NCBI GenBank assembly: GCA_000316135.1
Contig: JH994102.1
Span: forward strand, 1-36,027
Origin: Trachipleistophora hominis
Lineage: Eukaryota; Microsporidia; Pleistophoridae
Length of the DNA stretch: 36,027 nucleotides
Direction of reading: 5' to 3'
Part shown: in pieces, positions 179 to 35,570 of the stretch
Position numbering within the stretch: position 1 is the stretch's first letter
Layout: each line of letters starts with the position of its first letter
The notes under the pieces: model-generated
What the model saw: only the letters and a program-made list of their open reading frames with translations
Told to the model about the DNA's origin: nothing
Databases searched by the model: none
Program-made: the position numbers and the translations under genes

Positions 179-505
179 AGACCAATACATCTTGCAACAT
201 AAGAGTTATTTATTTTAGTTAGTAAATAGAGGAGGTTGGTTCCAGACTAACAACATACATCGTATTTTTATTGTTATAAAATGGTTATGGGTGTATATTC
301 CATGTATACGGCTATGAATGTAACCTAAAGAATAAAAAGGATTTAGTTTATAACTATAAGCCGGAAACCAGCATTCTTTATCGGATCTAACAGAGCAAAA
401 GGAAGTATTCGATCGAATAATATATGAAATGGAGGTAGCCAAACAGACTTTTTAAAACTCAAGTTGAAAAGAAATGGTATCAATTAATAACAATGTTTTA
501 ATAAG

Positions 506-13503: not shown

Positions 13504-13550
13504 TTATAAAAATACTTTATTGTTCACAAACACCATTTTTGAAACTTAAA

Positions 13551-13631
13551 CTATTTATTTCTTTTCATACACCTCACATCACACACTTTCTAGTTTGTTG
13601 AGATCGCCATGTCTAACGGCCTTTGATTCGT
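13551..13631 (-). repeat. Dispersed intergenic element, copy D
   Basis: A diverged copy of the family described under 21874-21967. On the complement it reads ACGAATCAAAGGCCG, then a central ACATGGCGATC, then AGAAAGTGTGTGATGTGAGG, followed by a possible short intron-like GTGTATG...AATAG. Alignment to the other copies needs one deletion. Confidence 0.6.
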
Positions 13632-15751
13632 GATCTTGTGATTGATTAACCACGGCTCATTTTTCCTTTTAGCATTTACTTGATCAAAATCAGATATTCA
13701 AAGTAAAAAACAACAATTTCGATATATTTACGATCAAATATTTAACTTTGATGAATAACTTCGTGTTTTATAATTTAATTAACACAAACTTGTCTTTATT
13801 GCATATAAATGCGTACAAAGACTTAGTTCCGTTGTCGAAAGGCATGATCAGTACTTGATAAAGGATATACTTCCATTCATGAATAACGCCTGTCGTTAAG
13901 TATGTCGAATACCACAATTGTAATTATCATTCGTCATAGTAATATTCAATAACGAATATTTTTTAAATTATAGCAACTGTTAAAGAGACATATTCTGTAT
14001 CTGTACTTAATAAGTTATTTTCTGATAGCGATTCCATAACTGTAGAGCTAGTCTAATTGTGTTTCTGCCTAAAAATGTTTCAAATAAAATGTGAATGAAC
14101 ATTCGTATGAAAGCATTTAGACTAACATCTTTAATAAAATTATTTTAACTGCGCAGATTATAGTATGTTTACAATATCACTATCACGTTAAATGCTATGA
14201 ATATCTTGGTTCCTACGTTATGTATAGATAAAAACATACGTACGACATGTAGAATTCATTTATATGATATATTCATCGCTCTTCGTTATGTAAAATCCTC
14301 TTTTTTAATAAAAAATGATTTATTTTAAAAGCTAACAGCACGTGTTCTACTTCTACAATTCATTCAGAGTTCTTTCCACAGACAAAAAATAATGTAAAGT
14401 TGTATTTCATGATAATTATTAGATAAAAGTTTCGTTGTGCTATCCTTATGCGTGGTAAGTCTTGAATAGAAGCGTCCTTAATACCATTCGTACGCATCTA
14501 GACTTTAAGTTATTTTTTTGTTCCAACATTGGCATATTATTTTCAGCGTTGGCCAATATTAAGTCTCAATAGACCTAAACGTGTGTTTCAAGATATATAG
14601 GATGATAATTAAAGCACTTTTGTACAAAACGATTGTAATTTCAAGCAATATGTTTAACGTAGAATTTATATCAATTATTATCAATAACAATTACTATCAT
14701 GTTACTTTCTATAACAATGAATAAGTTAGCTCTTTTGAAAACATAAAATGTTAATAAGCGTTTTCTACATGAAAGAAAGTATAATATGTATGAGCAACTG
14801 TATAAAAGTTTTTTTTAACCTGATTTATGGTTTATCGCTTAATATTTTAATTCTTGTATGGTAACTACGATTTACCTGGACTTAACAATTTTTTTATGAG
14901 AAACGTATTCAGTAAGTAAAATAAAGGTTCAAGAAAGACGTGTATTTGAGAAGGAATTGGCAATATAAACGTTGCATGAACTATTTCTAAGTTCGTACTT
15001 AGCGATTTTTTATCGATAATAAAACATAAAATGTAGTCTATTCAGTTGAATAGCTTGTAAATATTTTTGAAATGGTTGCAATTTTACTTTTTTAATCTTT
15101 ATAACATAAATATAATCAGTTCTAATTAACAAAACACTAATAATGGATGTGAATTGTTATCTTTTTATGTTAAATCTGTACTTTCTCATCATTTACAATG
15201 TTTTACATACCAAGCATTCTAAAATTTCACATTAGCGTAAATAATATAAATAACGCAGTGATAAACATTATCATATAATATTATTCGGTCGATAGTTATA
15301 GCATTTATCTGAAACGTAGCATTATTTACATTCTGGCCCTATGCAGGTGTTGTTTAGGTAGATGTTTATATTACACGGCGCATATGGATAGTCATAGAGA
15401 GTGTGTACAACGACAGTTGTATTAATTTATTCTTGTTTTCAGTATAATCACCAGAAAGTTCTTTTTATGGCAATTTTTTACCGCAAGAATAACCTTTTAA
15501 TTAACAACGTTCTGTTCGTGTAGGATGCTGTCCTTTATATGAGAATCTGGTGACTGTCGTATAATTAATATAATTAACTAAATCAGATATTTAGCTGTAG
15601 ATTTGAAAGTGTTCAAACCAAATAAAAGACAAATTATAGAAAATTTAATATCATTCAAATAAATTAGAATAGGATAACACACTTCACAGTTTTTGTTTAC
15701 GTTTGAATTGTTTGTTTTTGAAGTATAAATTACTTTGTTTATTATTTTCTT

Positions 15752-16423: not shown

Positions 16424-17249
16424 GTGTCCGAAATCTTTTTAAACCGTATGAGGTCGTATAAATTTAGGAAAACTAAGGCCATCTAAACGATTCTTCTATT
16501 TTTGTTTTATTAAAGACATTGCTCAAACCTTTACAACATCAAAATGTTCCTTAATTCACCATACAAAGCCTATTTTATAATAATATGCAGATTTACATGC
16601 TATAAATCATTTTGTTGTCAACCATTACTCTACAAAACACGAAATGATATAACAAGGAGGAATTATCAAGCCTTTATTGCAAACCTAACTATTCAAAAAG
16701 CATGTGATATATGATACTGTAGAAAACACCGGAATTACCGTTAATAGTTGCTCTCAAAGAGTAAAGTCTTTTCCTAATTAAAACTCTCATTCTCACCTAA
16801 AAAATTGCAGTTACATGCAAATAACATCAATCGCAGATTTAATTAATCACTCTACATCCATTACAGTTTTAATAGCTCTACATTCTTTACCAAATATTAT
16901 CATATTAATNNNNNNNNNNNNNNNNNNNNNNNNNNNNNNNNNNNNNNNNNNNNNNNNNNNNNNNNNNNNNNNNNNNNNNNNNNNNNNNNNNNNNNNNNNN
17001 NNNNNNNNNNNNNNNNNNNNNNNNNNNNNNNNNNNNNNNNNNNNNNNNNNNNNNNNNNNNNNNNNNNNNNNNNNNNNNNNNNNNNNNNNNNNNNNNNNNN
17101 NNNNNNNNNNNNNNNNNNNNNNNNNNNNNNNNNNNNNNNNNNNNNNNNNNNNNNNNNNNNNGTATTTCATAATAATCCTGCGTTAAACCATAAAATGCTC
17201 TGATCCGATCCACCCTACGATAAATTCTCAAATTTTTTTACCCTGTAAA
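16424..17249. other. Intergenic region containing an assembly gap
   Basis: AT-rich DNA without a supported gene, interrupted by 252 N. The CCT3 start signal CCC is at 17241-17243. Confidence 0.7.
16910..17161. other. Assembly gap (252 N)
   Basis: A run of N marks unsequenced bases, so the window is a scaffold. Open frames crossing it are artefacts. Confidence 1.
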
Positions 17250-18904: not shown

Positions 18905-19966
18905 GCATTTTCTATTCTCTTATCTTCAGTTACTAAGAAAGTACGTGCATTTACCACACTCTCCTTTCCAACGTTGTTCTCTGAATCGTTCATATTCTTC
19001 TTTTTTATTGTTTTGTATCGCAGTTCAACGTTTTATACCCGTTGCATTGCGGTAATGTTCTATACGGCATTGAAATAAATGCAGATACGTTCACAGTCTG
19101 GTGTTGAGTAGAACGTGTGATTAATAATTAAATAATTTTCTGCAAAAAAACGTTTACAATTTAAAGATTCTTGTCTTCCCTCAGAACACGTTGAAAATAA
19201 ATATTTTGCTATTCTACATGATGAACGTTTATAACATTAATTGGTGATTATTCACCCATTTTTGCGCTGCTTGTCTATTTCTTTAATTTATGAAATAAAA
19301 GATCGTAATTGTAAAGATTACGTACGCCTAATCTCACATCCAAGTAAAAAGGACGTTTAATAACGATTAAAATGAATGGTTTACTGTTACGTACAGGAAC
19401 AGTGCCTTAACTAAAACAACTTTATTTTCATTATTACGTTACGTATGACTCTGCAACGGAGTTTAAACAACGTTTACTCCTTAAATTTCTAATATCAACT
19501 CGTGTTGCTATACCTTTGCAATCTCTTTTTTAGATTGAAGGAGCTTTACTTAAAAAATCGGTGAATACTTTGCAATCTTTAATACTGAATTGAATCTTTG
19601 GTTGTTTTTCGATTTTATTACGTGTTTTAATCAATGTTAAACGGATAAAAGGTTTTTTGGATCAAAGAAATGACGATTATGTGCTATTTTGGCTGATACT
19701 GGAAGAAATTCTTTGATTGAATGTTAAGATCTTGAAAATTGAATTTAAATGAAAATTTTTGGAGAAGTTCTCTAGGATGCATCTGAGAACATCCTTGAAT
19801 CTCGGTCAGTCTTAAGGGACCATAAGAGGTGTAGAAATGTGGTAAGAAAACACTAATTAAACGTGCTTTGAATAAAAAACCTTTCATCGAGCTACGGCCC
19901 ACGCGTTAATCACTTTTGCAGTGGCAGCATATTTTTCTGCTGTTCAGATAACAAATGCTGTCTTTC

Positions 19967-20030
19967 ATGAACCAAAGATAAACGATCAGTCTAGCGAAAA
20001 GTGTTTACGGTGTGATAAAGAGTGTTAATG
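19967..20030 (+). repeat. Dispersed intergenic element, copy E (partial)
   Basis: ATGAACCAAAGATAAACGATC followed by GAAAAGTGTTTACGGTGTG resembles copy D with an internal deletion. It is the weakest member of the family and may be a remnant. Confidence 0.35.
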
Positions 20031-20705
20031 AACAAATTTTTTAAAAAATACATTTTTAATTTACAAGGTGAATTATAAAAAGAATCTAAGTGAGAATTGC
20101 TTTGCTGGTATAATTTGAAATTATAAGAATTTAAAGTGCTACAATAGTATTTTAGATCGTATACTAACGGTGAGAAAATGAATATCTACGTGAATAGTTA
20201 TCAGATGAAGGTTATTAGATAAACGCAAACAAGTGAAAAGATAAAAAGGATAATGTTAATATGTTTGATAATCATTAAAGAAAATACACTCACATTATAT
20301 TTAGGAATACAGTCGTTTATTTACACCGGTAGAGCATTCCTCGTTTTTTAAATTAAAGAATTGATCGTTAAAATATTATTGAACAAAAGGGTTTTATACA
20401 CCTGATTTTGTTTGAAAATAGCTTTTGTTAATTAAACAAGTGATTACTAAGAGTGCTATCCCGTGTATGATCCAAAAAACAAAAGTTTTGTAGAAATACA
20501 AATGATTTGTAAAAACGAACCATAGCTAAGCATAAAATACAATTCGCGTATTTGGTAAAAAAGGACCATAACAATACAAACACGTGTTAAATATTGATAT
20601 CTCCTTTTCGCATATATTAAACAAAAAATGTTAACTTTAATACTTTTTAGTGTTTGGTAATCTGTCTAAAAGAACGTAACTATTCCTTTATTTTACATTA
20701 TTAGA

Positions 20706-21338: not shown

Positions 21339-22555
21339 GTACTTATGGCAGATATGGTTGTATAAATCAGATTGTTAGAAGAGAACGCTTAGTACGAAAC
21401 GGTTGCTCATAATAACGACGGGCAGTTCGTACATTACAACACGTCTCTTATCTGCTAAAGAAGGTTTGAACGAAAAACATTATTTGCCAAGTAAAATAAC
21501 AATTTAATTAAATTACAAATTCTTAGAATAGATACTGCTGAGCAATAACATATAAAAAGTGCTATTTAAGCATAGTGATGCAAGCAAAACTGTTTTTAGA
21601 CACGTTTGTTGCGAAAGATGGCCTTATTGGTTGTTTTCTTAAAGATTCGTGGTTTAGTAGTTTTTATTCAAAGTGCGATTAATTAAGTGTGGGCTGGTAA
21701 TTAAACGGCGTCATACTGAAAAGCGTCTTTTTCATTATTTTATCGTTTACAATTTTAACCACACTCGTTAAATTGACTGTAATAGCTCATCTAAAAGTAG
21801 AACCGGCATTTTAAATTGAACGACCTTCTGTTAAGAAAATACTCAACCGAAAAAAAGAGCAAATATATTTTTTCTTAAAAGTTAATTTAATCATTACCTC
21901 ACACAACAACATTAAAACACACTCTTCTGGTCTACTGGGACTGCCATGGCATCAGCTTTTGGTTCATGTGAAGCAAATGTAAATACATTGTATAGACCAT
22001 TTACGATACATTTTCTACTAGATTGTTCATTTAAAGTTCTCAGCACTACTCAGATATAGATTAGTTATGGTTTATTGTTTGCTGACCAAAAAATATGAAA
22101 ACAAGAATTAAATTTTTAAAAATGCTCTTCTTTACAAAAAAATTGTTCACTGAATGCCGGTCCAGCGTTTTTATCAGCCGTCAAATACCAGCACTAAAAT
22201 TATTATTAAACTACTGTTGACAGACAACTCGTATACAGGAGTTAATCACCGTTTTACGTAGTTTAGTATTTACTAGCAGTAATATTAAATATAGTGGTTA
22301 TTAAAGCAGTTACGAGAGGAGTTTTTTCATTTAATGTGGTCAGTACAACCATAATTAATGAATCGTTTGTTACAGCTCTACATTGAACTCATAGAGCCGC
22401 GTAATTAAACACTGAAAACGGAAAGAAAATTTATTGGCGACAGAGAAACATTCTTGAAAGCATTTTACTTAACATTGTAGAGTATAAAGTGTTTGTATCA
22501 CGGCAGCCGCGTAGAATAGAAGATAATGAACACAAGCGGTACATACAAAAAACTT
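21339..22555. other. Convergent intergenic region
   Basis: This lies between the 122-aa gene and the end of the cyclase-like gene. It contains copy A of the dispersed element (21874-21967). I see nothing else. Confidence 0.6.
21874..21967 (-). repeat. Dispersed intergenic element, copy A
   Basis: On the complement it starts ATGAACCAAAAGC, has a central palindrome TGCCATGGCA, continues CAGAAGAGTGTGTTT and ATGTTGTTGTGTGAGG, and ends in a segment GTAATG...TTAACTTTTAAG that looks like a short intron. Copy B (32504-32608) matches along its full length. The centre in B is GACCATGGTC, so the flanks of CCATGG differ in a compensatory way. Confidence 0.85.
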
Positions 22556-23425
22556 TTAATAATCGCTAAACATATATTTACAGATATCGTTTACGCAAAT
22601 CTTTTCGATTCGAAGACTGGAGCGCACTTTTGAGCCAGGATATTTGATATGCCGGTTATAAACATAATCGCTGACCGTTATCACTTCACTCTTGGCATTA
22701 TCACATAATACATACGCCTCTGCTATCGTCCTTCCAACTATTGAAACACCATAGGGCATCATGACCATGTCCAACCTGCCCTGGTGTATGAGGCAGCGAA
22801 GCCGGAGATTCTCATTCCCTGTAATAAAATTTTTTTGTGAAAACTTTTCCAGCTCGTTGCCAAAGCTCACCGCATCCTGAAAATCTGTAAAGAGGCACAC
22901 CAGAGAGTCTCCCTCAACAGCCACGAGATAACCTCTAAATTGCCGTAACAAACGCTCTGCCTGCCGGAAATGCTTCTTCAGCGCGTTTTTCATTCCACGC
23001 CCGTAATGCCTCATGTAATACGTGCTCTTGACAATGTCCGTCATGAGTATGAAATTGCCCGGATTGAAGTACTTGGCATCCTGCGGAGAAATCGTAAAAT
23101 CAAAGCCAAGCGGCGATGTTATATTGAACGGCTCATTTTGCGCAACTTCTTCGTCCCGCTCGTCTCTTTCTTTTCCCTTCTCACGCGCGTACACTTGGTA
23201 AATAATAAAGCCGAGCCTGCACACCGCGTACACGTAGAACAACCCAAGGAGTGCCACAAGCAGCATGTTGTACAGTAGAGAACACACCACAACCGACAAA
23301 TCACTTGACTTGATGTATCTCAGCAGCCTGCGGCATCTGCCCGTCGCCGTACAAACGCTTGTCCTAAGCACACCTCCCTGTGCAACAGTTTCTTCCCTTA
23401 CTTGCTCATTTTCTTCCCTAGACAT
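22556..23425 (-). CDS. Membrane-anchored class III nucleotide-cyclase-like protein
   Basis: This 289-aa protein has a basic cytosolic N-terminus, a long hydrophobic segment (about 45-78, one or two passes) and a class III adenylate/guanylate cyclase domain (121-289). NFILMTDIVKST (124-135) supplies the first metal Asp (D130) and VEGDSLVCLF (170-179) the second (D173). CLIHQGRLDMV and GRTIAEAYVL (231-240) match the 'GxxVNxAARL' region, but the transition-state Asn and Arg positions are Ala235 and Val239, so cyclase activity may be lost. One domain per chain means a dimer would be needed. A GC-rich CCCC (complement of 23434-23437) precedes the ATG, and the coding region is richer in GC than its neighbours. 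The fold assignment is solid; activity is doubtful. Confidence 0.8.
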   Translation of the reverse strand: MSREENEQVREETVAQGGVLRTSVCTATGRCRRLLRYIKSSDLSVVVCSLLYNMLLVALLGLFYVYAVCRLGFIIYQVYAREKGKERDERDEEVAQNEPFNITSPLGFDFTISPQDAKYFNPGNFILMTDIVKSTYYMRHYGRGMKNALKKHFRQAERLLRQFRGYLVAVEGDSLVCLFTDFQDAVSFGNELEKFSQKNFITGNENLRLRCLIHQGRLDMVMMPYGVSIVGRTIAEAYVLCDNAKSEVITVSDYVYNRHIKYPGSKVRSSLRIEKICVNDICKYMFSDY

Positions 23426-23540
23426 GATAACGCGGGGCGGCCTGTCGTAAATTTATTATAAGCGATTAATTTACCACAAATTCGTAATTTGCTTTGATTT
23501 GGAATTTTTACATACTCGGAAACTTTACACATAACAACAC

Positions 23541-23776
23541 TTAGAAAAGGCAAGTGCCGTGTATGAGCGCTAATGCACTGCTCGACACTTCGTAGAACGC
23601 CTTTCTATCGTAAAATTTGCGAATGTCAAAATCTAGTTTGATAGCAGAGCTACTGATTGGAAGTGAAACGACCGTAAAACATGACAAATCGGTATGTAAT
23701 AAGAATGGACGTGTTATTTGCACAGAGAACAGCGTTTTAAAATCTTAATGCCGCAATTGCAGGGCAGTACACTCAT
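23541..23776 (-). pseudogene. Possible small gene with one-base frameshift
   Basis: From the ATG at 23776 the frame reads MSVLPCNCGIKI and stops after CSLCK. An adjacent frame without an ATG continues with well-composed sequence (LFSVQITRPFLLHTDLSCF ... DIRKFYDRKAFYEVSSS) to a stop at 23541. One added A near the ATTAAGATT junction would give a single protein of about 78 aa. I do not recognise it, and no C-triplet is present. Confidence 0.35.
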
Positions 23777-23844
23777 TTAATGAAAAATATTATCCATATG
23801 AGTTGCTATTCGGTAACTCTGCAGACAAAGCAGCAAATAATGAT

Positions 23845-24081
23845 TTACACACCATGTTGTCTACAAAAACGCGCAATCGGCCCTTTAAAGCGTTTGCCGC
23901 GTGTTTTTGCGCCAATTTTACCGCACCATGTTTTCACGTCTTGTAGTGATATGGCGATGACATTTGTATCAAAAAAATAAATGACAGATAGAAAAGCTAC
24001 TAAAGACAAAATAATGGCTAAGGAACAAAATGATCTTGCCTGTTGAGAATTTGCGTATTTATTGTAAAAGAATTTCTGCAT
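23845..24081 (-). CDS. Small membrane protein, 78 aa
   Basis: MQKFFYNKYANSQQARSF is followed by one clear hydrophobic helix (about residues 17-37) and a basic tail with two Cys (DVKTWCGKIGAKTRGKRF ... ARFCRQHGV). It could be a signal-anchored or type II protein. It starts with a true ATG and has non-random composition, but no C-triplet and no recognised family. Confidence 0.45.
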   Translation of the reverse strand: MQKFFYNKYANSQQARSFCSLAIILSLVAFLSVIYFFDTNVIAISLQDVKTWCGKIGAKTRGKRFKGPIARFCRQHGV

Positions 24082-25047
24082 TTGTGATCGTAAAAAGCGT
24101 ATAATGGCACTTCAAACAGAGCAGTTAATTCTTGTATTTTCTGTAAGAATGTTGTGGTGGTGTTGGGACTGCGCCAGTGAAGCAAATTTTTTATTTTTAA
24201 AATTTGTATCGTTACTACGCATTTTTATTGAACGTATGAAATCGTTTTGGGATATTCTAACCAGTCTTTGGATAATGATCCTCTCCCATTCGAGATAAAT
24301 ATACGCATGCATGGCGCAGTACAACTCACCCGTCAAAAATTTATTTTTCGTGCACTTTTCACCACTATAAACCAATTTTCCTTTTTTGTACGGTTGAACT
24401 TCAGAGCAAATTGGCAGATACTACAGCAATCTGCGTGTAAAATACTTTTTATTGTGCGTGAACATGTACAAAGGCTGTTAGTAGTGTATACATAATGTAA
24501 CTTGTAGCTGCACATGAATAAACATGCATTATGACAATAAGTTTGGCCTACACTCCTAAGTAATATATTCTTGACTAAAAATATTTATCATTGGTCATTT
24601 CGGGCACAAAGAGATTCTCAGGCTTTATTAAGTAAATGATCCACAGAAAACATGTTTATTAACCACATCACCAACGCAGCGCGTACTTTTATCAACTAAA
24701 TTATCAATTTAACACATACTTTTATACATTACGTAAATATTTTGAGAAACTTCCTTTAAGTGATTAAAAAAATCAAAAATTATCATAAACTGAAAATATT
24801 TGCAGACTTAAGAAACATGTTATTAAACGCAGCAGGTTGTTTTATATACAATTCTTTGAAATTGGTTGATATCTGTGTGATATGCTTCTGGAATGTGTCG
24901 CTATCTCGATTTTTAATTTACTTTTTGTGCTAAAAATCTTTAATCAGAGATGAGAAGTATCTAAAGTGACATATAATCAATATTTTGCTGTAAAATTTTA
25001 TTTATTTATTTGCATTCTCCTCTTTACTTTTACATTGTCTGCGATTT

Positions 25048-25233
25048 ATGGTGCTTATTAATACAGAATCATTGCAAGACACCAGTTATTTTGCCCATTT
25101 TGCTTATTACATGGTTATAATTACGTTTTGTATTATTTATTTCTCTCTTATTCTATCCAGAACATCAGTTGAGCACTGCATTCTAAATACGTTCCTTATT
25201 TTAGTATTAATATGCTTATTAGAGATATTATGA
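25048..25233 (+). CDS. Candidate two-pass membrane protein, 61 aa
   Basis: MVLINTESLQDTSYFAHFAY is followed by two hydrophobic helices (about 20-37 and 45-60) separated by a polar turn SRTSVEHC. The size and shape resemble small ER or V-ATPase assembly subunits, but no motif supports a name. It has a true ATG but no C-triplet. In AT-rich DNA such ORFs can be chance. Confidence 0.4.
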   Translation: MVLINTESLQDTSYFAHFAYYMVIITFCIIYFSLILSRTSVEHCILNTFLILVLICLLEIL

Positions 25234-26682
25234 TGCAATCACACTACCAGTAACATATCACAGCACAACTTCATGTTCACAGCCCGACATCAGCTATTTT
25301 ATCGATACTTATTTTTATGAATTACTTTGTTGTGAAAACTCTTTGGTCGTTTTGGATAAGATCATACCATAACTATAATTTACATCTAATTTGTGGCACT
25401 TAAAAGTTATTGTGAAGCGGTGCATAGATTTAAAGGTACCAGCTTGTGATGTTAAGGTTCAAATACGTATCTAGCTTTGAAAATTTAGAAAAATAATTAT
25501 AACAAATGAGAAACTATCTCAATTTTTTGCGCAGCACAATGCTGTCTAACAATATATGAAAATGGTACATTCTTATGTTTGATATAAATGACAGTACATG
25601 TGGTGTTTTGTACGTGTTATACGAATTAAGACGATTTTATTGTACGGAAAATTAGTTCTTGTTTACTTTTTGGCTTCTAAAGGTATGTATTTACTAATTA
25701 TAGATAAACCAAGTATTTATTATCGTAGTGAAGTAAGGACTTTCTTTCTTCATTGTAATATGCATATTTATCAAATTTAGATCCATATTTTAATGTGATA
25801 CAGCCTGATGTTTATTGTATGGCAACCAATCTTGTTATGGTAAGGACAAACTTTGTAGATAATGGTATTTTTGGCCGGAAAATTCTGTCAAAATTGTTCT
25901 ATGTAGATATTTTTTTGACTTTAAAGTTGCTTTTCTATCTGTGAAGACTTTGATGCGCAAGACTTGTCTGTTTAGCGGTATTGATCACGATATGAATCTA
26001 AGAACCAGTATCATTCGTAAAAAAGATAAAAATAGAATACAAACAGAGATATTTACTTACTAACCGTGCAGTTTAAATTTATAATTGCTATAACATTGTT
26101 TTACTCATGGTTTCCTTTATCACACTTTGATAGTTTATTCCAGCCCAGGTAGTTTAGTGTTTGTTTTTACAGTAATCGCTGAATCATTTATGTATAAACA
26201 ACCATATCTTACATGCTTCATCGGTAGAAAATTAAACGTAAGGTTTGTTTTCAACATTTTTATTTTAAAAATTTTTGTAGAAACTTCTAGATTCACCGAA
26301 TTACATTAAACACGTTTCTAACGGAAGAATATGCCTTTTTTCATTTGGATGCAAAAATATTTGCGTAATACTATGGTGTTCGTTGTGGATTAAGAAATCT
26401 ACCAAATCTACAGTACAAAAAATATTATGACCACAGCTCAACAAGTTTGCACATTTAGACCGTCCATTATCATTCGTATTTTATGATCATATTTTGTATC
26501 TACCATTGATAACTTTATATTGACGTAGTAACTTTAGAAAAATATGCTTTCCAGTTTTTATCATACAAATTGAAACGAACAAAGTTTTTAAAAGTTTTAC
26601 ATGCTCGTTTGACTGGACAATGTGCAGCTCTGGTAATTAAACAAATTTTTAGTTAAAAAATGGGCATATTCTACGGACATGT

Positions 26683-26698
26683 TTTATCCCGGGATAAA
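26683..26698. promoter_or_regulatory. 16-bp perfect palindrome TTTATCCCGGGATAAA
   Basis: A GC core in an AT-rich region, with perfect dyad symmetry and no spacer, about 150 bases upstream of the RPC34 start. Such a site suits a dimeric DNA-binding protein; the function is unknown. Confidence 0.5.
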
Positions 26699-26845
26699 TA
26701 CAATATAAACACGATTAGTGTTATAATCTTATATTAGGAATCGTTTGGTTGCTTTTTGGTAAGTTTAACTTTAGAAAAACGATGGAATGCTTAATACGAC
26801 CTTTTTTATGATTTTGACATTAAATGTACACCCACGGTCACCACG

Positions 26846-27553
26846 ATGTCAGTCATAAAACAAGTTTTTGATTTCATACAGGCACAACCAGATGGTGTTA
26901 CGGAAGAGGACATTCTAAAGCGATTTCCCGACCTGTCAAAGGATCAACTGCTCACCGAGCTAACCAAATGGCACTTAGAGAACCGGATCAAAAAAGATAA
27001 GAAAAACAAAATAATGTACGTTAGAAACACAGAGGACGATGAGAAAAGTGTACTGGACGTTCTTAAAAAATCGAAAGGCCAAGGCTGCACAATACGTGAT
27101 ATAAGATTGACCACCAAACTGTCGCAAAACCTGATAACCAAAATTCTAAGAAAGATGCAGGATATGAAGATGGTTAAAGCGGTTAAAGGACAGAAAAACA
27201 GACAAAACATTTTTATGGTCTTTGAGGAAACACCAGATGACGAAGTAACCGGCGGAATATGGTTTAACAACGGTGATGTGGATGTAGAATTTACGAATCA
27301 GCTTATCAAACTGATCTACACGTTTGTGAGAAACAAAACGCGGGATTTAATTTCGTATGACCACAATCCCACGATTGAAGATATAAAATCGTTCATAACA
27401 GAATCAAATGTGCTCTCGATCAATATTAGCATGGCAGACTTGAGAAAAATAATTGACGTGATGGTGTACGGGCAGATATTGTTAGAACTTCGCGACGGTG
27501 ACCGGATAATGTACCGGGCACTGCGCTCACATGAAAATGAGATCTTAAGCTGA
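26846..27553 (+). CDS. RPC34: RNA polymerase III subunit RPC34/RPC6
   Basis: This 235-aa protein is the C34/RPC6 subunit of the Pol III-specific heterotrimer that helps recruit TFIIIB and open promoters. Residues 1-60 and 65-127 form two winged-helix domains (TEEDILKRFPDLSKDQLL; GCTIRDIRLTTKLSQNLI). Residues 134-140, VTGGIWF, followed by EFTNQLIKLIY, are the family signature (VTGGxWYxDxxxDxEF). A third winged helix fills the C-terminus. It is about 80 residues shorter than yeast and animal proteins, and the Cys-rich C-terminal extension that holds an iron-sulfur cluster is missing. CCC (26831-26833) lies upstream of the ATG. Confidence 0.93.
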   Translation: MSVIKQVFDFIQAQPDGVTEEDILKRFPDLSKDQLLTELTKWHLENRIKKDKKNKIMYVRNTEDDEKSVLDVLKKSKGQGCTIRDIRLTTKLSQNLITKILRKMQDMKMVKAVKGQKNRQNIFMVFEETPDDEVTGGIWFNNGDVDVEFTNQLIKLIYTFVRNKTRDLISYDHNPTIEDIKSFITESNVLSINISMADLRKIIDVMVYGQILLELRDGDRIMYRALRSHENEILS

Positions 27554-28371
27554 AAACATCATTTTGACACGATAAAATGGTTGATACGAGTTGTTAGCAT
27601 AAAATGATTTTCAGTTATTTTTTACATAGCGTAGCAGCGGATGTTATTTTCTGGTACTGTACGAATATTTTCGTCCAATTGCGCGTCGTTAAATATTATT
27701 TTGTGATTTATTTCCTATTAAACATGAATGATTGCCGTTCCCCGTCACCAATAATGAATTGTTGCTACGTTCTGCACCCCACAAGTCTTCTTTACACACT
27801 ATAACCATCAAATACAACAATTTACCGCATTTATAACGTTTATACATCGTTTATATACACATGTATCCTAAAAAGTATTTTTTAACTCTTTTACTACGCT
27901 ATATTACCTTAAGAGGTTGACCGTAGACACGGCCAACCTCTCACAGCATCGATATGATTGCAATCAAACCATAACAATATAAAAATAAACGGCCCAACTT
28001 TGTTTGTTACAATAATTTAAATTTTTACCAATTATTAAAAAATTATTCTTCAAATATATTCTCTGTTTCAGAGAGTTTAGCATGAAGCAAGCACTCGTAT
28101 TAAACACCAACGATAAATATCTACTATTCGTCCAGGATATAGCATAAGCACTTAAATGATAAATCATGTTGTTATGCCCTGTCATATTTTATACGTGTTA
28201 TATTCTCCTTTTTTGGGGTTCCTATAAATAGGCCTTGAAGAACCAGTCACATCACAGGAGAACGTCCAATATTGTCTATTTAATCTCTTCTTCCCATTTC
28301 TAAACATTCCGTTTCACGGTGAAATAAATTTGTTTTAGCTCTTTATTAAAAAAATACTTTTCTTAGCACCC
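27554..28371. other. Intergenic region with a strong hairpin
   Basis: There is no confident gene. Short ORFs at 27604-27804 (plus, 66 codons) and 27964-28185 (minus, 73 codons) start with ATG but lack other support. A strong hairpin lies at 27912-27941, and a TATAAATA box at 28223-28230, about 140 bases before the acyltransferase ATG. A CCC abuts that ATG (28369-28371). Confidence 0.5.
27912..27941. other. Strong 12-bp hairpin
   Basis: AGAGGTTGACCG, loop TAGACA, then CGGCCAACCTCT. Eleven of twelve positions pair, with one A-C mismatch. The GC-rich stem is unusual for this AT-rich spacer. It is about 360 bases past RPC34 and 430 bases before the acyltransferase gene. It may be part of a small RNA or a regulatory element. 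Confidence 0.65.
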
Positions 28372-29790
28372 ATGAGACGATCCTTTCTGAACGATGCGGC
28401 AGACTTGGTCAGCTTGGGCACCAGGTCCATCAACGCAGACTCTTTTACCAAGTGTTTCTCACCAATATCAGCGCTAGAAATGCATCATTCGGGTGTTTTG
28501 TACATATTTTCTATTCTCATCCGCTATCTTCTGTTATTTCCTCTGCGATTTACGTTTTTTATCGCCGGCACGCTCGTTTTTGCGTTCTTTTTTCTCGTTG
28601 GGGTCATTTTCAAGAGCGATCGGATAATCGCGTTCTCCTTCTGGCTCTATTGCAACGTGTTCTGCATGTCCTTTGGAGCACGGATCAGGAATCATGGAAA
28701 CAAAAAGTGGCTCAACGTGCCGCATGTATACGTGGCGAACCACACCTCATTTCTTGATTTCATAGTTCTCAGCTCGCACAAGTTCTGCCACGCGAGTCTT
28801 GCCGAGAACCATGGCGGTCTTTTCGGATTTTTCTTCAAAAATCTGCTCCTAAGAAATGGGAGCCTTTACTTCAAGCGGTGCGAGAAAAACGACAAGAGTA
28901 TTGTCAAGGAGAGGATCAAACAGCACATACAGAGCATGAAGACGCCCATGCTGATATTTCCGGAGGGCACGTGCGTCAATAACAAGTACACGGTTATGTT
29001 TCAGAAAAGCGTTTTTGAAATTGATGCTACGATTTGTCCTGTGGCCATAAAATACAAAAGAACGCTTTTTGACCCGTACTGGAACAGAAGAAGGCACACG
29101 TTCACCGAGCACCTGCTGTATCTCATGTCTCGGTGGTGCATAGATGTTGACGTGTACTGGATGGACCCTGTGAATAGAGGAAAGAAGGAAAGTGTATTTG
29201 ATTTTATGAATCGTGTGAAGACTGCCATAAGTGCGAAGGGCGGCCTTGTATCGCTGAAGTGGAACGGGTACATGAAAAACAGGATAATTGTGAAGGACAT
29301 AGAAATACTGCGCGCAGCGTTTCGGCAAACGTATTTGGATGTGATTGGTGAGCGTGCGCACGAGAATAAGCAGGTGGTGTCAGAAGACGTGATATGCAAG
29401 AATTTCAGTATGAACGATTTGGACAATGTTGGCGAGAAAACGAACGGACAGATCGTTAAGAGTACAAAAAATGGAAAACACAACGTGATTTACTTCCGGC
29501 AGGACAAGAGTGCGCCGTCGTCATCCGCAGGTGTTCACAGCGAACAGAACACCACGAATAGAAAGCAGGGAGGACGAAGTGCCCGTAGAAAGGAGCTGTA
29601 TGTGTGCGAAAATCCTGAGTTAATTTATTTCGATACTACAAATTATGACACGTTTATAAAAACAGTCTTGAACCGGTATTCGTTGATAAAATACCAGAGA
29701 TGCGATGTAAAGTGCGATTTTGATAATTTTCTTGTCAAAACGATGAAGGTGGGATGTTCGTGCAACAACAAAAAATTTTTAAAAAAATGA
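28372..29790 (+). CDS. GPAT3/4-like ER glycerol-3-phosphate acyltransferase
   Basis: This is a 472-aa PlsC-family acyltransferase that would transfer an acyl-CoA chain to glycerol-3-phosphate (or lysophosphatidate). Two membrane segments (about 40-62 and 63-84) precede motif I NHTSFLDF (H124, D129), the GPAT3/4-specific HGGLFGFFFK, motif III FPEGTCVNN (195-204) and motif IV CPVAIKY (222-228). The block YWMDPVNR ... FMNRVKTAISAKGGLVSLKWNG also follows GPAT3/4. All catalytic residues are intact. A low-complexity Ser/Lys-rich linker (about 350-405) and a Cys-containing tail extend the C-terminus. CCC directly abuts the ATG. The next two genes on this strand are also lipid genes. Confidence 0.92.
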   Translation: MRRSFLNDAADLVSLGTRSINADSFTKCFSPISALEMHHSGVLYIFSILIRYLLLFPLRFTFFIAGTLVFAFFFLVGVIFKSDRIIAFSFWLYCNVFCMSFGARIRNHGNKKWLNVPHVYVANHTSFLDFIVLSSHKFCHASLAENHGGLFGFFFKNLLLRNGSLYFKRCEKNDKSIVKERIKQHIQSMKTPMLIFPEGTCVNNKYTVMFQKSVFEIDATICPVAIKYKRTLFDPYWNRRRHTFTEHLLYLMSRWCIDVDVYWMDPVNRGKKESVFDFMNRVKTAISAKGGLVSLKWNGYMKNRIIVKDIEILRAAFRQTYLDVIGERAHENKQVVSEDVICKNFSMNDLDNVGEKTNGQIVKSTKNGKHNVIYFRQDKSAPSSSAGVHSEQNTTNRKQGGRSARRKELYVCENPELIYFDTTNYDTFIKTVLNRYSLIKYQRCDVKCDFDNFLVKTMKVGCSCNNKKFLKK

Positions 29791-31175
29791 AATTTGTTAC
29801 GGGGATGTGTAGGAAAGAAGCGAATTAAGATTCATTTAATGAATAAAACATAGACTTACATTTAAAATTCTACCGTACAAGCAGAGAGTGTTGTTACAAA
29901 ACATTTACTTGCTCTAATGTACTATTTCTCTTATTTCCTGGTAAGAAACAATTCTTCAGCTAGAGTTACGCTATTCCTTAGTTATGCTATCGCATTAACA
30001 CCTACACACGCCTTCCTAATCAAATGAGATTGGTTTTTAGATTTTTCGTGTTTATATGGCTGACAACAGCCCAGCTCTCTTTCTTAACTAAAAACGTTTT
30101 TGTTTACTCACCTCTTACAGCAATACACTCTTCTGGTTCGGTAGAATCGATCACGGTTACCCGTATTTGGTTTATGGCGCTCATTTCTCAAACTAAAATA
30201 ATTTGAGTACAAAGACGTACCAATTTGTTATTACGGCAGAGAATGACCAACGTTTGGCGGTAATCTTACTATCCTGTATAAATTAGATGTGATTTGCAAA
30301 ATAATCGTAATATGGCCCGTATAAGGAGAAACAACGTGTTAATGTTTGATGTTTTTTAAAAAAAAAGTTTGCTTGTTGCTATGAAAGGGGTGTATTAATT
30401 AAAAAATTTTTGGAAACGATCGTAGTTTCCCCAGGCATGGGGTTGATTTAATTTAAGAAACAAAGAATTTTGAGGTGATTTTAATTTGCTTTGGTAATTA
30501 AGCAGAAGGTTATTCATTTTTACGCACTAAATGAAGACCAAAGGTTTTAATGGCCTTGAATAAAGAGCGTAGAAATGATACGTATTGGTGAGATACTTTT
30601 AGCTTCTGATATACTAGTCTAATATTCATCTGATGTATGCGAAGAGGTGTAAATAAATAAAATTTGCCTGTTAAGGATTATTATCTTATATTTATGTTAT
30701 TGGCTTACACCGATCCACTTAAATAATTTATTGTTCAATTTTCGAACAACGAATGTGAAAATTGAGAAAAAGAAAGCTTTGGCTAAAATATTATGATAAA
30801 CGGTAGATGGTGATTCATAAAACATGATCAGCGATAATACCCGTGAATAAATCTTTTCAAGTTTTAATTTCTTTTAGATGAATGAATGTAATCCTCAAAA
30901 AAATTGGGCGGTAACAACTGTCAAGGTTATTAATTGATCTCAGTAGAGCAGAAGAACATTTTGTACGATTTAATACGGTGAGTGTAAATAAAGATGCTTT
31001 TAATAAAAAGGATAAACCATCCAGATTTTTAAAACGCATATCGATCAAACTATTTGCTGATAATTTCTAAATTGATAGTTTATTGCCAATCATACAATTA
31101 ATTTACTGATGCAGGTGTAATTCATCGGTAATATTACCGATGTTTATTTAAAAATTAATTTTTGTGGAGAGGGCC
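29791..31175. other. Intergenic region with dispersed element
   Basis: Between the two acyltransferase genes. It holds copy F of the dispersed element (30020-30184), which is open on both strands; see that entry. The rest is AT-rich without a supported ORF. Confidence 0.55.
30020..30184 (-). repeat. Dispersed element copy F, possibly coding on either strand
   Basis: On the complement an ATG at 30184 opens MSAINQIRVTVIDSTEPEEC. The frame ends at a GTGAGT site; removing a 24-nt segment (30088-30111, GTGAGT to TTTTTAG) joins it in frame to KKESWAVVSHIN and on, to a stop at 30020 (46 aa). On the plus strand an ATG at 30024 gives a 60-codon ORF with a signal-peptide-like start, MRLVFRFFVFIWLTTAQ. 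The DNA is homologous to copies A-D. Which strand, if either, is expressed cannot be decided from sequence. Confidence 0.5.
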
Positions 31176-32333
31176 ATGAACAATACAAAGGATCACAGTG
31201 GAATCGTAAACGTTTTATCTTTGCTGCTCGCGCTGTTTTTAATCAAAGAGTACTACGCAATGTTTGACGTGCGGAATGTTAAAAATGTTTACAGCTTGCT
31301 GCAGATTCGTAACCCGCCGTTTCTCTGCGCAATTCTTATCCTGGTGGGTGCACGATCGGTGCTACAATTCGCTAAGGCGAACGTAGCGTGCCTCATAGTG
31401 AGCGAAATCCTCATTTACTACTTGATTTATACACGGACCTACGGTATTGTATCTTGCAATACGGCCCTGCTTTCCATGATAAATTTTATGAAATTATACT
31501 CGTACATTGCCGAAACAAGGAAAAATGATGCTGTGACACGAAATGAACCGCCTATAAAAGAGAATAATACGAACACCTGTGCAAATGTTCACCAACACGA
31601 ACGAATTACTGAAGACCGGCGTAACGATGTTCCTGCGCCTGAATTTACGTACTTCATCAGATTTTTATTTCTGCCCACGCTCTGTTTTTTAGATGCAACC
31701 AGATACAGAAAAAGGAGCGTGTCTGCCCTATTCTACAACCTTATAATGGCCAGTCTTTTATTTTCACTCGTCAATTTTCTTGTTGCATTCTACATCATAC
31801 CACTCCTCGAATGCTATACAATAAGAGATTTTGTAACCGATCTGACCGTCTTCGTGCGAATATCTGCAACGTCCTTCGTCATTTGGGTCGCGATGTTTTT
31901 GTTCTTTTTCAAATATTACCTTTCATTTCTGGCTGAATGCACCAATTACGAAAACAAGATCTTTGGTGATTGGTGGAACGCCCGCTATTTTAGAGATTTT
32001 TGGAGGCTTTGGAATATACCGACACACGAATGGCTCAGAAGATACGTTTTTTTCCCGTGTTATCGTGTGATTGAATCAAAATGGACGTGCACGTTGATAG
32101 TATTCGTTATTTCAAGTATTTTGCACGAAATCGTTTACATTTTAACCTTTAAAAAGGTGGGTGTAGTGGTATTTATGAGCATATTATCACAATTCGTTTT
32201 CATATACTTAGAGCAGGTGCTGTTCAGCCCAGGAAATCTACTATTCTGGTTTGTATTTTGTTTTATTGGGCAGCCCGTATTTTTATTGTCTATAAGAAAG
32301 AGGTTCTTAGAAATTGTGTTAATAAAAGCCTGA
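31176..32333 (+). CDS. DGAT1/ARE-like MBOAT acyltransferase
   Basis: This 385-aa polytopic ER enzyme is of the DGAT1/SOAT (yeast Are1/Are2) group, which esterifies diacylglycerol or sterol with acyl-CoA for storage. Roughly eight hydrophobic helices surround the hallmark motifs: FGDWWN (263-268), RDFWRLWNIPTHEWLRRYVF and the catalytic His317 in SSILHEIV. WNIPTHEW is close to the WNIPVHKW of DGAT1, favouring diacylglycerol as substrate. The family's long polar N-terminus is short here; a polar insert (115-155) separates the helix groups. The true ATG at 31176 is preferred to an upstream GTG, and GGGCC abuts it. It lies 1.4 kb after the GPAT gene on the same strand. Confidence 0.9.
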   Translation: MNNTKDHSGIVNVLSLLLALFLIKEYYAMFDVRNVKNVYSLLQIRNPPFLCAILILVGARSVLQFAKANVACLIVSEILIYYLIYTRTYGIVSCNTALLSMINFMKLYSYIAETRKNDAVTRNEPPIKENNTNTCANVHQHERITEDRRNDVPAPEFTYFIRFLFLPTLCFLDATRYRKRSVSALFYNLIMASLLFSLVNFLVAFYIIPLLECYTIRDFVTDLTVFVRISATSFVIWVAMFLFFFKYYLSFLAECTNYENKIFGDWWNARYFRDFWRLWNIPTHEWLRRYVFFPCYRVIESKWTCTLIVFVISSILHEIVYILTFKKVGVVVFMSILSQFVFIYLEQVLFSPGNLLFWFVFCFIGQPVFLLSIRKRFLEIVLIKA

Positions 32334-33144
32334 GGGATAGCATTCGAAATAAATGTCCTTTATTAGCCCTATAAATCGTATTATGTCTTTAGAGTACTAC
32401 ACAATCATTTTATATTACCTTTTCTTTTTTTTAAAAAAAGATCTTTTAATCCTTCGTACACATCTTTTCTTCCTAAACGTATTTTGTCTATTCTACGCAC
32501 CCTATGTCAATGAACCAAAAGCCGGTGACCATGGTCGGTCCCAGCGGATCAGAAGAGTATGTTTGGTCGGATGTTGTTGTGTGAGGTAATAATTAAACAG
32601 ACTTTTAGTAAAAAATTACGCACCTTACAGCGTAATATTTTTATACCGCCTTATATTTTAATTTATTTAAAATTTTCAGGTCTTTATACAAAAATACGTT
32701 TTAACAGTCCTTTTAGACCCATTCTTAGGCATCAACAACGTTATTTTAAAACACCTAAAACGTGTTTTTATAGCGAATCAAAGGCGGTTATACTTAATTT
32801 ACTTAAATATACGACTATAATTTAATTAAGCCTAAAACAAAATTAATACGTAAATAACCCTCTGTTCATCAAATGCTGCTCAATGTTACGCCAATAAACA
32901 ATTTTATGATAAAACCACATCATATGCTTTTTCTTTACTATCCGCGAACAATTTACTATTAATCCATGTTTATACGAGCATGTTGCCATCTAAATACGGA
33001 AAATATAACAATGTAGATATAATAAACAACAAATTAACTGCGTATAAAACACTTAACGCCGTTTATATTTCATTTGGCAGCATTTTCTATCACAAAATGC
33101 CTGTGAACGGGTACCAAAGATTTGCGTAAACATTCGCAACCCCT
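32334..33144. other. Intergenic region with dispersed element
   Basis: It holds copy B of the dispersed element (32504-32608). ORFs at 32353-32589 and 32559-32825 overlap that element, have AT-driven composition and are not called. The CCCC start signal of the next gene is at 33140-33143. Confidence 0.55.
32504..32608 (+). repeat. Dispersed intergenic element, copy B
   Basis: ATGTCAATGAACCAAAAGCC, the central palindrome GACCATGGTC, CAGAAGAGTATGTTTGG, GATGTTGTTGTGTGAGG and an intron-like end GTAATAATT...ACTTTTAG align with copy A (opposite orientation) over about 95 bases. The short ORF from 32504 (MSMNQKPVTMVGPSGSEEYV) shares the NQxxVT...EE pattern with copy F but stops at the intron-like boundary. 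Confidence 0.85.
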
Positions 33145-35043
33145 ATGGACCATGTCGTGATAGCCTTACGGATACTCAACGATGACATCAGTTTCATGAT
33201 GAAACTGGTCAAGGAGAAATACGTGTCGCCCATATTTGGAACTGTTGGCGAGCACCTCGTGTATCTGCGAAGAATTGATCTCTTAAAGAGCCTATGTGCA
33301 TCTCTAGAGGACGAGAAAGTAACAGAGGAGGAGAATATGAACGCTTACCTTTTGAAACGAGAGAGTGATGATTGTATAGTAGAGAAGAACAGCGCTATAA
33401 ACGAGTTTATAGCGTCTTTCTTGCCGCTCTCTAAGAAACTAAACTATCCGGAAATAACTTTGTATTTTGATAGCAGCTCAATCCGTTCTCCCGTACGCGC
33501 AGGCCTGCTGCAGAAATACACGAACATCATCAACAGGTACCAGACCAGGTACGTGACCTTGTACGACGATTTCTTCTCATATTACAAAATAAGAGAGGGA
33601 AAAAAGTTCTTACGCAAGAAGCTGTCGTTGAATACGATACGAGGAATAAAGCTGAGCAGGAGGAGGCTGATAATCAGCACATATGATGATAAAATAGTGT
33701 TTACTTCGACACTTCAGGACCTCATGGAGTGGTACAAGGTCATTGATGATTTGATCAAGAGAATGAATGACCGTGAGTTTTACGTGAACAACTACGTTTT
33801 TAAGCTCCTGTATTACCTGTGTGAGAAGGAGGCACGAAAGGAAATGCTGAAGATTGACCATCTCTCACTTTATATCAAAGACAAGGGCGTTCAGGCCGTT
33901 GCATCGGAGAGTAACGCGGCGCAGCCTCCTGTGACCGTTCCACAGGTATATGAAGCAGCAAAAACGAACGAAGTGCAAGTGAGCAGTCCATCAGAGTCTC
34001 CTCAACTAGAAGAGTTTGAATCTGCCACTGAGAACAACAGCAGCGAGACGTTCTACGACTTTGAGGAAAACGGCGAACTAACAAACGTGGCACATTTGGT
34101 GGACAGTCTGGTCAAAAGTGCTAAAAGGCTTGCGCCAGCCCTTCTGCCGGTTTCTTTGCTAGAGCCACAAAGCACACTGCAAAGAATGGCTGAGGGCGCT
34201 CTGCTATTCAAAAACATACGGAGAAATGATTCACTGTCAGAACAGCATGCGGTTGTTCTGGTCGCTGTTTACATCGTTGGTCTCATGAATTTGCAGTTGG
34301 ACAGGAAATTTGCCTTTGAAAGCCTTGCTGGTGAGACGTTCTTTGCTGAGCATGAGAATACGAAAATATACTGCGAGAAAACGCTGAGAGCATCGATAGT
34401 ACATGCTGTGGATGACTTATTCACGTTGACAGCTGTTATAGATTTGGCGTACGACAAGAGAAATAAAAAGATTGTCGTGTATAATAAGAGCAAGTGCACA
34501 CTCAAAATTAGCGATAAAACGATCAATTTTGGTCTTCCGAATGTCCGGATAAGAAGAAAATTGGAGTTTTGCGGTGAATGCATGGTAGAAAGTGAAGGGG
34601 AACAGGCTAAGCTACTCGTTCGTGACAATAACGTTACGTTTTCGTATAGAAATGGTGATAAACGATGGCAGATCGTTGGTCCTGTGACTAACATAACCGT
34701 TTTTTGTAATGAACGAATTACTGCAAATTTTAGTTCGAATGATTTCAAAAAAATGAAAATTGAGGACTATGAGGATGTTCACGAATATATGCCAAGCGAC
34801 AGCCGCGGACGTGCTGATATACAGGCATTACAAGAAGGACGTGTGCAGGATGTTAATGTACATCGGCAGAAAATGAAAGACCAGACCAAATTGAAAGGAT
34901 CACCTGAAATGAAATACTTTGATTTGATCGATAAAAAGTATGTCCTGAAAAAGGGAGATGGTGGACGAAAGGATGACGATGAAAGAGAAGATGATGATGA
35001 TGATGGTGGAAGAAAGGATGATGATGGAAAGATGCCGAAATGA
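33145..35043 (+). CDS. OSBP-related lipid-transfer protein (PH + ORD)
   Basis: This 632-aa protein has the layout of long OSBP-related proteins, which move sterol or phospholipid between ER and other membranes. Residues 116-207 form a PH domain (RAGLLQKYTNIINRYQTRYV to WYKVIDDLIKRM). A linker holds an acidic, FFAT-like VAP-binding motif TFYDFEE (302-308). The ligand domain starts with LLEPQSTLQRMAEG (338-351), has FAFESLAGETFF (389-400, family KPFNPLLGETFE) and ends with the PSDSRGRAD segment (550-558, family PTDSRxRPD). The EQVSHHPP fingerprint is replaced by CEKTLRASIVHA (410-421), so PI4P binding through the His pair is lost. The tail is Asp-rich low complexity. CCCC lies just before the ATG. 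It is the third lipid gene in a row. Confidence 0.85.
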   Translation: MDHVVIALRILNDDISFMMKLVKEKYVSPIFGTVGEHLVYLRRIDLLKSLCASLEDEKVTEEENMNAYLLKRESDDCIVEKNSAINEFIASFLPLSKKLNYPEITLYFDSSSIRSPVRAGLLQKYTNIINRYQTRYVTLYDDFFSYYKIREGKKFLRKKLSLNTIRGIKLSRRRLIISTYDDKIVFTSTLQDLMEWYKVIDDLIKRMNDREFYVNNYVFKLLYYLCEKEARKEMLKIDHLSLYIKDKGVQAVASESNAAQPPVTVPQVYEAAKTNEVQVSSPSESPQLEEFESATENNSSETFYDFEENGELTNVAHLVDSLVKSAKRLAPALLPVSLLEPQSTLQRMAEGALLFKNIRRNDSLSEQHAVVLVAVYIVGLMNLQLDRKFAFESLAGETFFAEHENTKIYCEKTLRASIVHAVDDLFTLTAVIDLAYDKRNKKIVVYNKSKCTLKISDKTINFGLPNVRIRRKLEFCGECMVESEGEQAKLLVRDNNVTFSYRNGDKRWQIVGPVTNITVFCNERITANFSSNDFKKMKIEDYEDVHEYMPSDSRGRADIQALQEGRVQDVNVHRQKMKDQTKLKGSPEMKYFDLIDKKYVLKKGDGGRKDDDEREDDDDDGGRKDDDGKMPK

Positions 35044-35403
35044 TTTGAGAATCATAACGGTTAATAAAGTACATAATACTTAACATAGCAGCTTTATAAT
35101 CTTTAAAATAATCAGTACGCCAGTTATGTGCTCTTTTCATAGAATGTGGTGTAAATTTGTTTTTCTACGCATCAGTACAACATTCCGTTTAATACGTAAA
35201 CGATGTGAATGAACCGTTTCAATTGTGATAAATAATATGATTTGTAAGTTATTTCTGCCATAAATAGTAAATTTATGATAACGTAACGATTTTACCATCA
35301 CATTGTTGTATTTGTTTGGTAAACACTATGATCAACGCTGATCAATCATTTGTATGAATTGTTATATATTAATTAACGATTATCCCCTTACGACAGACAA
35401 GTC

Positions 35404-35499
35404 TTACAATTAGTAATTTAACATTTCATCCAACATCTATTTAACATACTCTCCCCGGTGCATTAGCACCCATCATGGCCTATTCAGCCTTTGGTTCAT
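35404..35499 (-). repeat. Dispersed intergenic element, copy C
   Basis: On the complement: ATGAACCAAAGGCTG, a central GGCCATGATGG, GGAGAGTATGTTAAATAGATG and a tail through GTTAAATTACTAATTGTAAG. It aligns with copies A and B with small gaps. Confidence 0.7.
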
Positions 35500-35570
35500 G
35501 GTGTAAAATGATATCGCCATAGCTTTGTAGTTCTCACCAAGAGGGAATATCATCACCATTCATTCATTAT

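Follow-up and report, generated by a model that had tools for sequence, protein, structure and literature searches.

Short intergenic elements of the microsporidian Trachipleistophora hominis: a probable SINE-like retroposon family matching the 3' end of a degenerate LINE

A dispersed element in the window

The window analyzed here is a stretch of 36,027 nucleotides (nt), i.e., positions 1 to 36,027 of contig JH994102.1 (C118 in our numbering) from the 5.5-Mb, 119-contig assembly GCA_000316135.1 of Trachipleistophora hominis. Between its genes, one of which encodes a CCT-gamma 93% identical to that of Vavraia culicis, lie copies of an element of about 105 nt with a 3' poly(A). A first-pass annotation had recorded six segments, A to F, as a dispersed family found in both orientations and only between genes, and had considered a noncoding RNA family, a short mobile element, or relics of a multigene family as explanations.

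A profile built from 61 copies located outside the window detected 12 window matches of at least 10 bits, five of which are A, B, C, D, and F, whereas the top match in 40 dinucleotide-shuffled windows scored 7.7 bits and none reached 8. Some circularity is inherent in this profile, since its copies were reached starting from copy B and, in three cases, with C. A covariance model, R1, was built with A, B, C, and F, leaving out D and E; the shuffle control applies to the profile. Segments A to D and F belong to the family. Segment E is borderline, being a weak R1 match that the window-free profile does not recover. Seven matches lie on the plus and five on the minus strand, and all 12 are outside open reading frames of 80 or more codons, with the exception of copy B, which overlaps an 88-codon frame (32559-32825) that we take for a chance frame. 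The family is thus larger than first described, and its dispersal in both orientations holds, as does its intergenic position apart from that overlap.

32508-32614, plus strand: copy B, a nearly complete short element of the main subfamily (CAATGAACC ... TTTTAGTAAAAA), query for the genome search; profile 103.2 bits (32509-32614), R1 119.9 bits
32494-32504, plus strand: 5' target-site duplication of B, TACGCACCCTA; 10 of 11 bases recur downstream
32617-32627, plus strand: 3' target-site duplication of B, TACGCACCTTA, past the A-run (direct-repeat test)
21869-21969, minus strand: copy A, near-complete short element, main subfamily; profile 61.4 bits (21869-21968), R1 82.8 bits; weak flanking duplication TACATTTGCT/TATATTTGCT with a score of 7, just under the count threshold of 8
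35402-35501, minus strand: copy C, second subfamily, hairpin GGTGC-TAAT-GCACC; profile 31.9 bits (35424-35501), R1 49.2 bits
30082-30177, minus strand: copy F, diverged; profile 27.0 bits (30085-30177), R1 56.4 bits; duplication score 3, i.e., no convincing target-site duplication
13537-13633, minus strand: copy D, diverged; profile 19.8 bits (13569-13632), R1 34.9 bits (E-value 0.0005)
19965-20050, plus strand: copy E, borderline, alignment gapped across the middle hairpin; R1 29.1 bits (E-value 0.006)
354-455, plus strand: further diverged copy; profile 16.6 bits
5239-5287, minus strand: further fragment covering the 3' half, with the lowest score among the 12; profile 10.0 bits
8362-8466, plus strand: further diverged copy; profile 11.6 bits, R1 34.8 bits
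13179-13229, plus strand: further copy, 3' half; profile 17.6 bits
19804-19878, plus strand: further copy, matching from profile position 26; profile 18.4 bits
26605-26658, plus strand: further copy, 3' half; profile 12.0 bits
30934-31009, plus strand: further copy; profile 14.4 bits, R1 37.8 bits over 30907-31009

The 3' part of copy C passes, by eye, into other sequence, and an A-run is not seen there. Past this copy the minus strand (35384-35409) runs into TGTAAGACTTGTCTGTCGTAA..., and near-identical words occur 5' of another copy (locus L034, near 2530-2570), perhaps a second, unrelated repeat family.

Copy number in the assembly

The expectation of further copies elsewhere in the genome was borne out. 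With copy B as the query and 40 of 71 candidates scored, at least 42 places in the assembly matched at E ≤ 0.001, and the 22-base core with up to three mismatches occurred 120 times, LINE (long interspersed nuclear element) tails included (64 forward, 56 reverse); the core pattern read backwards as a control gave none on either strand. Beyond the window, 216 kb of fetched sequence held 43 further matches, none of them a target of the two DNA searches. The resulting 55 matches in about 252 kb correspond very roughly to 1,200 in 5.5 Mb, a figure that is biased upwards because the sequence was picked around known copies or LINE remains and because tandem partners count twice. We estimate a family size on the order of a thousand copies.

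Elements of the type of copy C had 20 matches in the genome including C itself; four of the 19 places outside the window were examined, i.e., three small stretches and one inside locus L014. A third subfamily with the hairpin GGCGC/GCGCC was seen at L024 1431-1536 (minus strand), L005 35-141 (plus), L034 3672-3778 (plus), and L023 1720-1826 (minus), and its member at C95:41484, within L024, has a perfect 15-base target duplication.

Identity with the 3' end of a LINE

Eleven of the first loci share sequence upstream of the element: an open frame comes to its end there at GCGCACTAA, and TTTCC(T)CC lies between this frame end and the element. Likewise, in the long copies that were fetched, a LINE frame ending at GCGCACTAA leads directly into the element, which spans the 3' untranslated region (3'UTR) of the LINE in full and begins 5 to 8 nt past the stop codon. 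The short element is therefore equivalent to the 3'UTR of a degenerate LINE. A 3' end in common with a partner LINE is a feature of short interspersed nuclear elements (SINEs).

The 70 nt preceding the element in the LINE had 24 matches in the assembly and a LINE piece used as the query had 8, while a Pfam search for reverse transcriptase yielded 9, at least one of which (on C108) belongs by eye to an element of the long terminal repeat (LTR) type. On C111 and C21 the reverse transcriptase lies upstream of the tail, in order and on the same strand. Two public proteins match reverse-transcriptase pieces of the assembly: a T. hominis protein is contained without a single difference in a frame of C21, and another is 100% identical to the C111 piece. 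A 117-amino-acid LINE piece found its best PDB match in R2 (E = 3.7e-11) and the next in L1 (2.6e-8). The LINE frames carry stops and shifts, and expanded and frameshifted non-LTR elements have been reported for T. hominis by Heinz et al. (PMC3486916, section 8); those elements are probably the autonomous partner of the short one.

Several observations were made around these LINE remains. Long open frames, leucine-rich by eye, adjoin them at L075 (C12:124646-127924) and L076 (C111:5567-8842) and may belong to the leucine-rich repeat family of T. hominis described in PMC3486916. Locus L070 (C108:48307-51780) carries an LTR-type retroelement, distinct from the LINE, with frames that resemble by eye a reverse transcriptase, an RNase H, and an integrase. 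At L079 (C93:6560-6760), a short copy of the C type apparently lies antisense within a LINE fragment, with LINE-like words, by eye, on both sides.

Marks of retroposition

The aligned copies mostly begin with CCATGAACC and finish with ACTTTTA(A/G)(T)AAAA, and their flanks are unrelated to each other apart from short direct repeats. These repeats were scored in the 39 LINE-free, near-full-length copies among 91 (25 LINE-linked and 27 incomplete copies were left out). Target-site duplications with a score of at least 8 flanked 19 of the 39, compared with 7 of 1,482 mismatched flank pairs, and at a score of at least 10 the counts were 9 and 0, respectively. The clearest duplications comprise 13 to 15 bases with zero mismatches, and lengths vary from 8 to 17 bases; an earlier, looser alignment had given a mean duplication score of 9.1 versus 6.4. 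The 65 rows of alignment A1, which includes LINE tails, diverge from their mixed consensus by a median of 18.7%. Two further SINE features are thereby present: the element is short, noncoding, and nonautonomous with many dispersed copies, and it combines target-site duplications with a 3' A-rich tail, as in target-primed reverse transcription. The proposal of a short mobile element is supported by the poly(A), the duplications, the copy number, and the identity with the LINE 3' end.

Searches for A and B boxes and with Rfam and ARAGORN gave no sign of a tRNA-, 7SL-, or 5S-type head carrying an internal RNA polymerase III (Pol III) promoter. Rfam at the gathering threshold and ARAGORN gave no match in the window, and relaxed Rfam scans of two copies (B and L009) returned nothing relevant and no ribozyme family. 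Short words in common had pointed to an origin from 7SL, a hepatitis delta virus-like ribozyme, or tRNA, an idea that is not supported, since Rfam and ARAGORN showed nothing relevant. With three of five listed SINE features present, we call the element a LINE-tail, SINE-like retroposon rather than a classical SINE.

RNA fold

A fold was derived by single-sequence folding of the well-preserved copy L012 and then counted over the 65 alignment rows. It consists of ACCA/UGGU around GGCC/GGCC, a middle hairpin GGUCC-CAGC-GGACC, and a long terminal helix with the 3' strand UAAUUAAAC..CUUUU. Over all rows, 87.3% of the cells are paired, compared with 85.7% in shuffled and 21.8 to 48.6% in slid controls. 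Cells with a double change numbered 41 versus 20.0 (standard deviation, 4.0) in shuffles, and pairs with a double change numbered 17 versus 12.4, a value that 7 of 500 shuffles reached. These covariation counts lean to the L012 pairs, because the structure was taken from that copy, and many rows are decaying insertions. The compensating changes between subfamilies in the middle hairpin (GGTCC/GGACC, GGTGC/GCACC, and GGCGC/GCGCC) are stronger evidence than the row counts. Folding z-scores were -2.54 for L012, -3.37 for L024, -1.88 for L002, and -1.36 for L080, and RNAalifold predicted just part of the middle hairpin from the mixed alignment.

The four helices covary and absorb both the palindrome and the intron-like tail described in the first-pass annotation. 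CCATGG forms no self-contained hairpin and sits on the 3' strands of two nested helices.

Fixed 5' end, descent, and head-to-tail pairs

LINE homology extends 0 to 3 nt upstream of ATGAACC in 37 of 65 near-full-length copies (two of which are LINE tails masked by an indel), 7 to 15 nt in five (scores of 5 to 7), and at least 26 nt in 23. The 5' end of the element is sharply fixed. Since the truncation points of ordinary 5'-truncated LINE copies would scatter, the coincidence of 37 ends at one site argues against such an origin. Of 82 matches that score at least 20 bits and extend to the 3' end, 6 start within the first hairpin (profile positions 18 to 22); the use of B as the query means that copies truncated deeper inside are underrepresented.

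In a tree of 61 copies with many unresolved forks, the labels LINE tail and short copy change 11 times, compared with a mean of 19.5 after shuffling (none of 500 shuffles was as low), and at least three changes are required by starred branches. The short copies therefore cluster on this tree but fall into several LINE subfamilies.

Adjacent matches within 60 nt formed 10 same-strand pairs versus 1 opposite-strand pair (119 matches), and the downstream unit starts at profile positions 20 to 22 in 4 of the 10. In three clear examples, on C95, C107, and C63, a unit ends in an A-run that directly adjoins a second, 5'-truncated unit, which by eye belongs to another subfamily in at least one case. 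By analogy, these head-to-tail pairs suggest traces of template jumping, a process described for R2 (PMC3414825).

Origin of the short copies

We regard the segments as old insertions of a nonautonomous, SINE-like LINE-tail retroposon, however its 5' end is made, and assign this reading a probability of roughly 0.9. A complete copy is the ~105-nt LINE 3'UTR alone, i.e., CC-ATGAACC... followed by the four helices and poly(A). By analogy with zebrafish LINEs (PMC4176376), the reverse transcriptase of the LINE probably recognizes the folded tail. This enzyme would act in trans, copying short, polyadenylated tail RNAs through target-primed reverse transcription, and at times may switch from one RNA onto the poly(A) of another. 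As the template, a discrete short RNA, be it a transcript of its own or a decay or processing fragment shielded by the fold, is somewhat favored over repeated stalling of the enzyme; stalling would account for the intermixed tree, although it positions the 5' end less well. Viral exonuclease-resistant RNAs, in which decay is halted by a fold, provide a model for a protected tail fragment, and such a fragment would explain a 5' end 6 to 8 bases before the first helix without a promoter. A more far-reaching version, which we consider unlikely, is a headless, tail-only retroposon: the folded 3'UTR of the LINE would survive as a discrete polyadenylated RNA, e.g., as a leftover of 5'-to-3' decay, and that RNA alone would have founded the roughly thousand insertions, doing so more than once and independently in several LINE subfamilies. 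If true, a tail-only retroposon would be a SINE produced by RNA decay that needs no promoter of its own.

Several results weigh against the retroposon reading or some part of it. Canonical Pol III A and B boxes with up to one mismatch per box occurred in 1 of 65 rows, compared with a shuffled mean of 6.2, so that no Pol III promoter of its own is visible in the element. LINE tails and short copies are mixed in the tree, a pattern more in keeping with repeated derivation from LINEs than with a single, independent SINE lineage. Of the 119 matches in the fetched sequence, 28 are LINE-linked, as are 27 of the 66 near-full-length ones, LINE ends having been fetched deliberately. A LINE endonuclease was not matched by PF14529 or PF03372 at E ≤ 1, which may reflect low sensitivity. 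Twenty of the 39 tested copies lack a duplication at the threshold, with age as the likely reason, and the fold of copy B is barely more stable than those of its shuffles (z = -0.71). Finally, as the sampling began from copy B, the subfamily proportions and the copy estimate are rough.

Within the LINE-tail reading, a variant dispenses with a separate short RNA and assumes that 5'-truncated LINE insertions were halted at a single barrier, such as a hairpin at the frame end or a terminating ribosome. This variant is a real contender, albeit a doubtful one. It would account for a short element that is wholly LINE sequence and for the intermixed tree, the frame end around GGCGCAC was often paired when 25 LINE tails were folded, and the LINE stop codon lies just 5 to 8 nt upstream. 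However, GCGCAC ends about 11 nt short of ATGAACC, while the boundary falls within about 3 nt in most copies, and a ribosome whose A site is occupied by the stop codon should extend about 10 nt past that codon. Moreover, short copies seem far commoner than LINE tails: LINE sequence was present in the 5' flank of 0 of the 12 window copies, and 24 LINE ends compare with 120 core matches, LINE tails included.

The remaining explanations depart from the LINE altogether. A conserved family of noncoding RNA genes, with a function in the cell and no link to transposition, would also show covarying structure and many copies, and in this sense the noncoding RNA proposal captured a property of the element, though not with the palindrome as drawn; the target-site duplications, the poly(A), the median divergence, the fusion to LINE frames, and the absence of window matches to Rfam families at the gathering threshold make it very improbable. 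Relics of a multigene family with a 22- to 24-nt intron were suggested by copy B, which has an ATG-initiated frame and a GT..AG-like tail. The reading frame is not conserved, however: the ATG is in its expected place in 39 of 65 rows, a median of 18 codons precedes the first stop, and GT and AG are both kept in 8 of 65 rows, so that the GAGGT...AG tail does not stand as a family feature and this explanation is almost certainly wrong. The same can be said of a miniature DNA transposon (MITE), which would likewise be short and dispersed in both orientations; terminal inverted repeats were not seen by eye in the aligned copies, the ends are asymmetric with a 3' poly(A), and the duplications of 8 to 17 bases are not of fixed length. 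Overall, the interpretation of the first-pass annotation is partly supported.

Comparison with known retroposons

UnaSINE and UnaL2 are a SINE/LINE pair with a common 3' tail. In zebrafish, the proteins of ZfL2-1 and ZfL2-2 recognize the stem-loop of their own tail (PMC4176376), and the T. hominis element and its LINE resemble these systems in having a common stem-loop 3' tail. The difference is that the element described here consists of the tail only, with no tRNA-, 7SL-, or 5S-like head found, and recognition by the enzyme is presumed. The protist element EhSINE1 is thought to use EhLINE1, whose known copies are broken, and is flanked by target-site duplications; a precursor small RNA is not known and similarity to A and B boxes is limited, according to PMC2996970. 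A broken LINE partner, poor Pol III boxes, and target-site duplications are thus common to EhSINE1 and the T. hominis element, but EhSINE1 is mostly 500 to 600 bp long and has about 70 bp of 3' end in common with its LINE, whereas the whole ~105 nt is common here. The R2 SIDEs of Drosophila are also nonautonomous, keep the structured 3'UTR of a non-LTR element, and show template jumps, and R2/R1 hybrids have 14-bp duplications (PMC3414825). The R2 SIDEs, however, retain a 5' self-cleaving ribozyme and occupy fixed sites in ribosomal DNA, while the present element is dispersed and the relaxed Rfam scans of two copies revealed no ribozyme. In the trypanosomatid pairs ingi/RIME and L1Tc/NARTc, the short element resembles its LINE partner over its full length (PMC2996970), as here, where, unlike in those pairs, the LINE 3' end alone is kept. 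EhSINE1, the R2 SIDEs, and the ingi/RIME pairs are the closest systems, and by the descriptions in these sources none is tail-only.

In the literature searched, no microsporidian SINE family with a structure and a partner was found, and the word "sine" is absent from the main texts, supplements aside, of PMC3486916, PMC4202319, PMC12558613, PMC4435813, PMC4654818, and PMC4405373. A claim to the first microsporidian SINE would nevertheless be wrong, because an automated repeat table lists SINEs as 0.18% of the Nosema bombycis genome (PMC3614468).

Although microsporidia serve as the textbook case of genome reduction, the T. hominis genome seems to hold about a thousand short intergenic retroposons. 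A tail-only family would be a natural record of the template needs of a LINE enzyme, and its fixed 5' end poses a clear and testable question, i.e., the origin of the template RNAs. As a minor observation on the window itself, positions 16910-17161 consist of 252 N.
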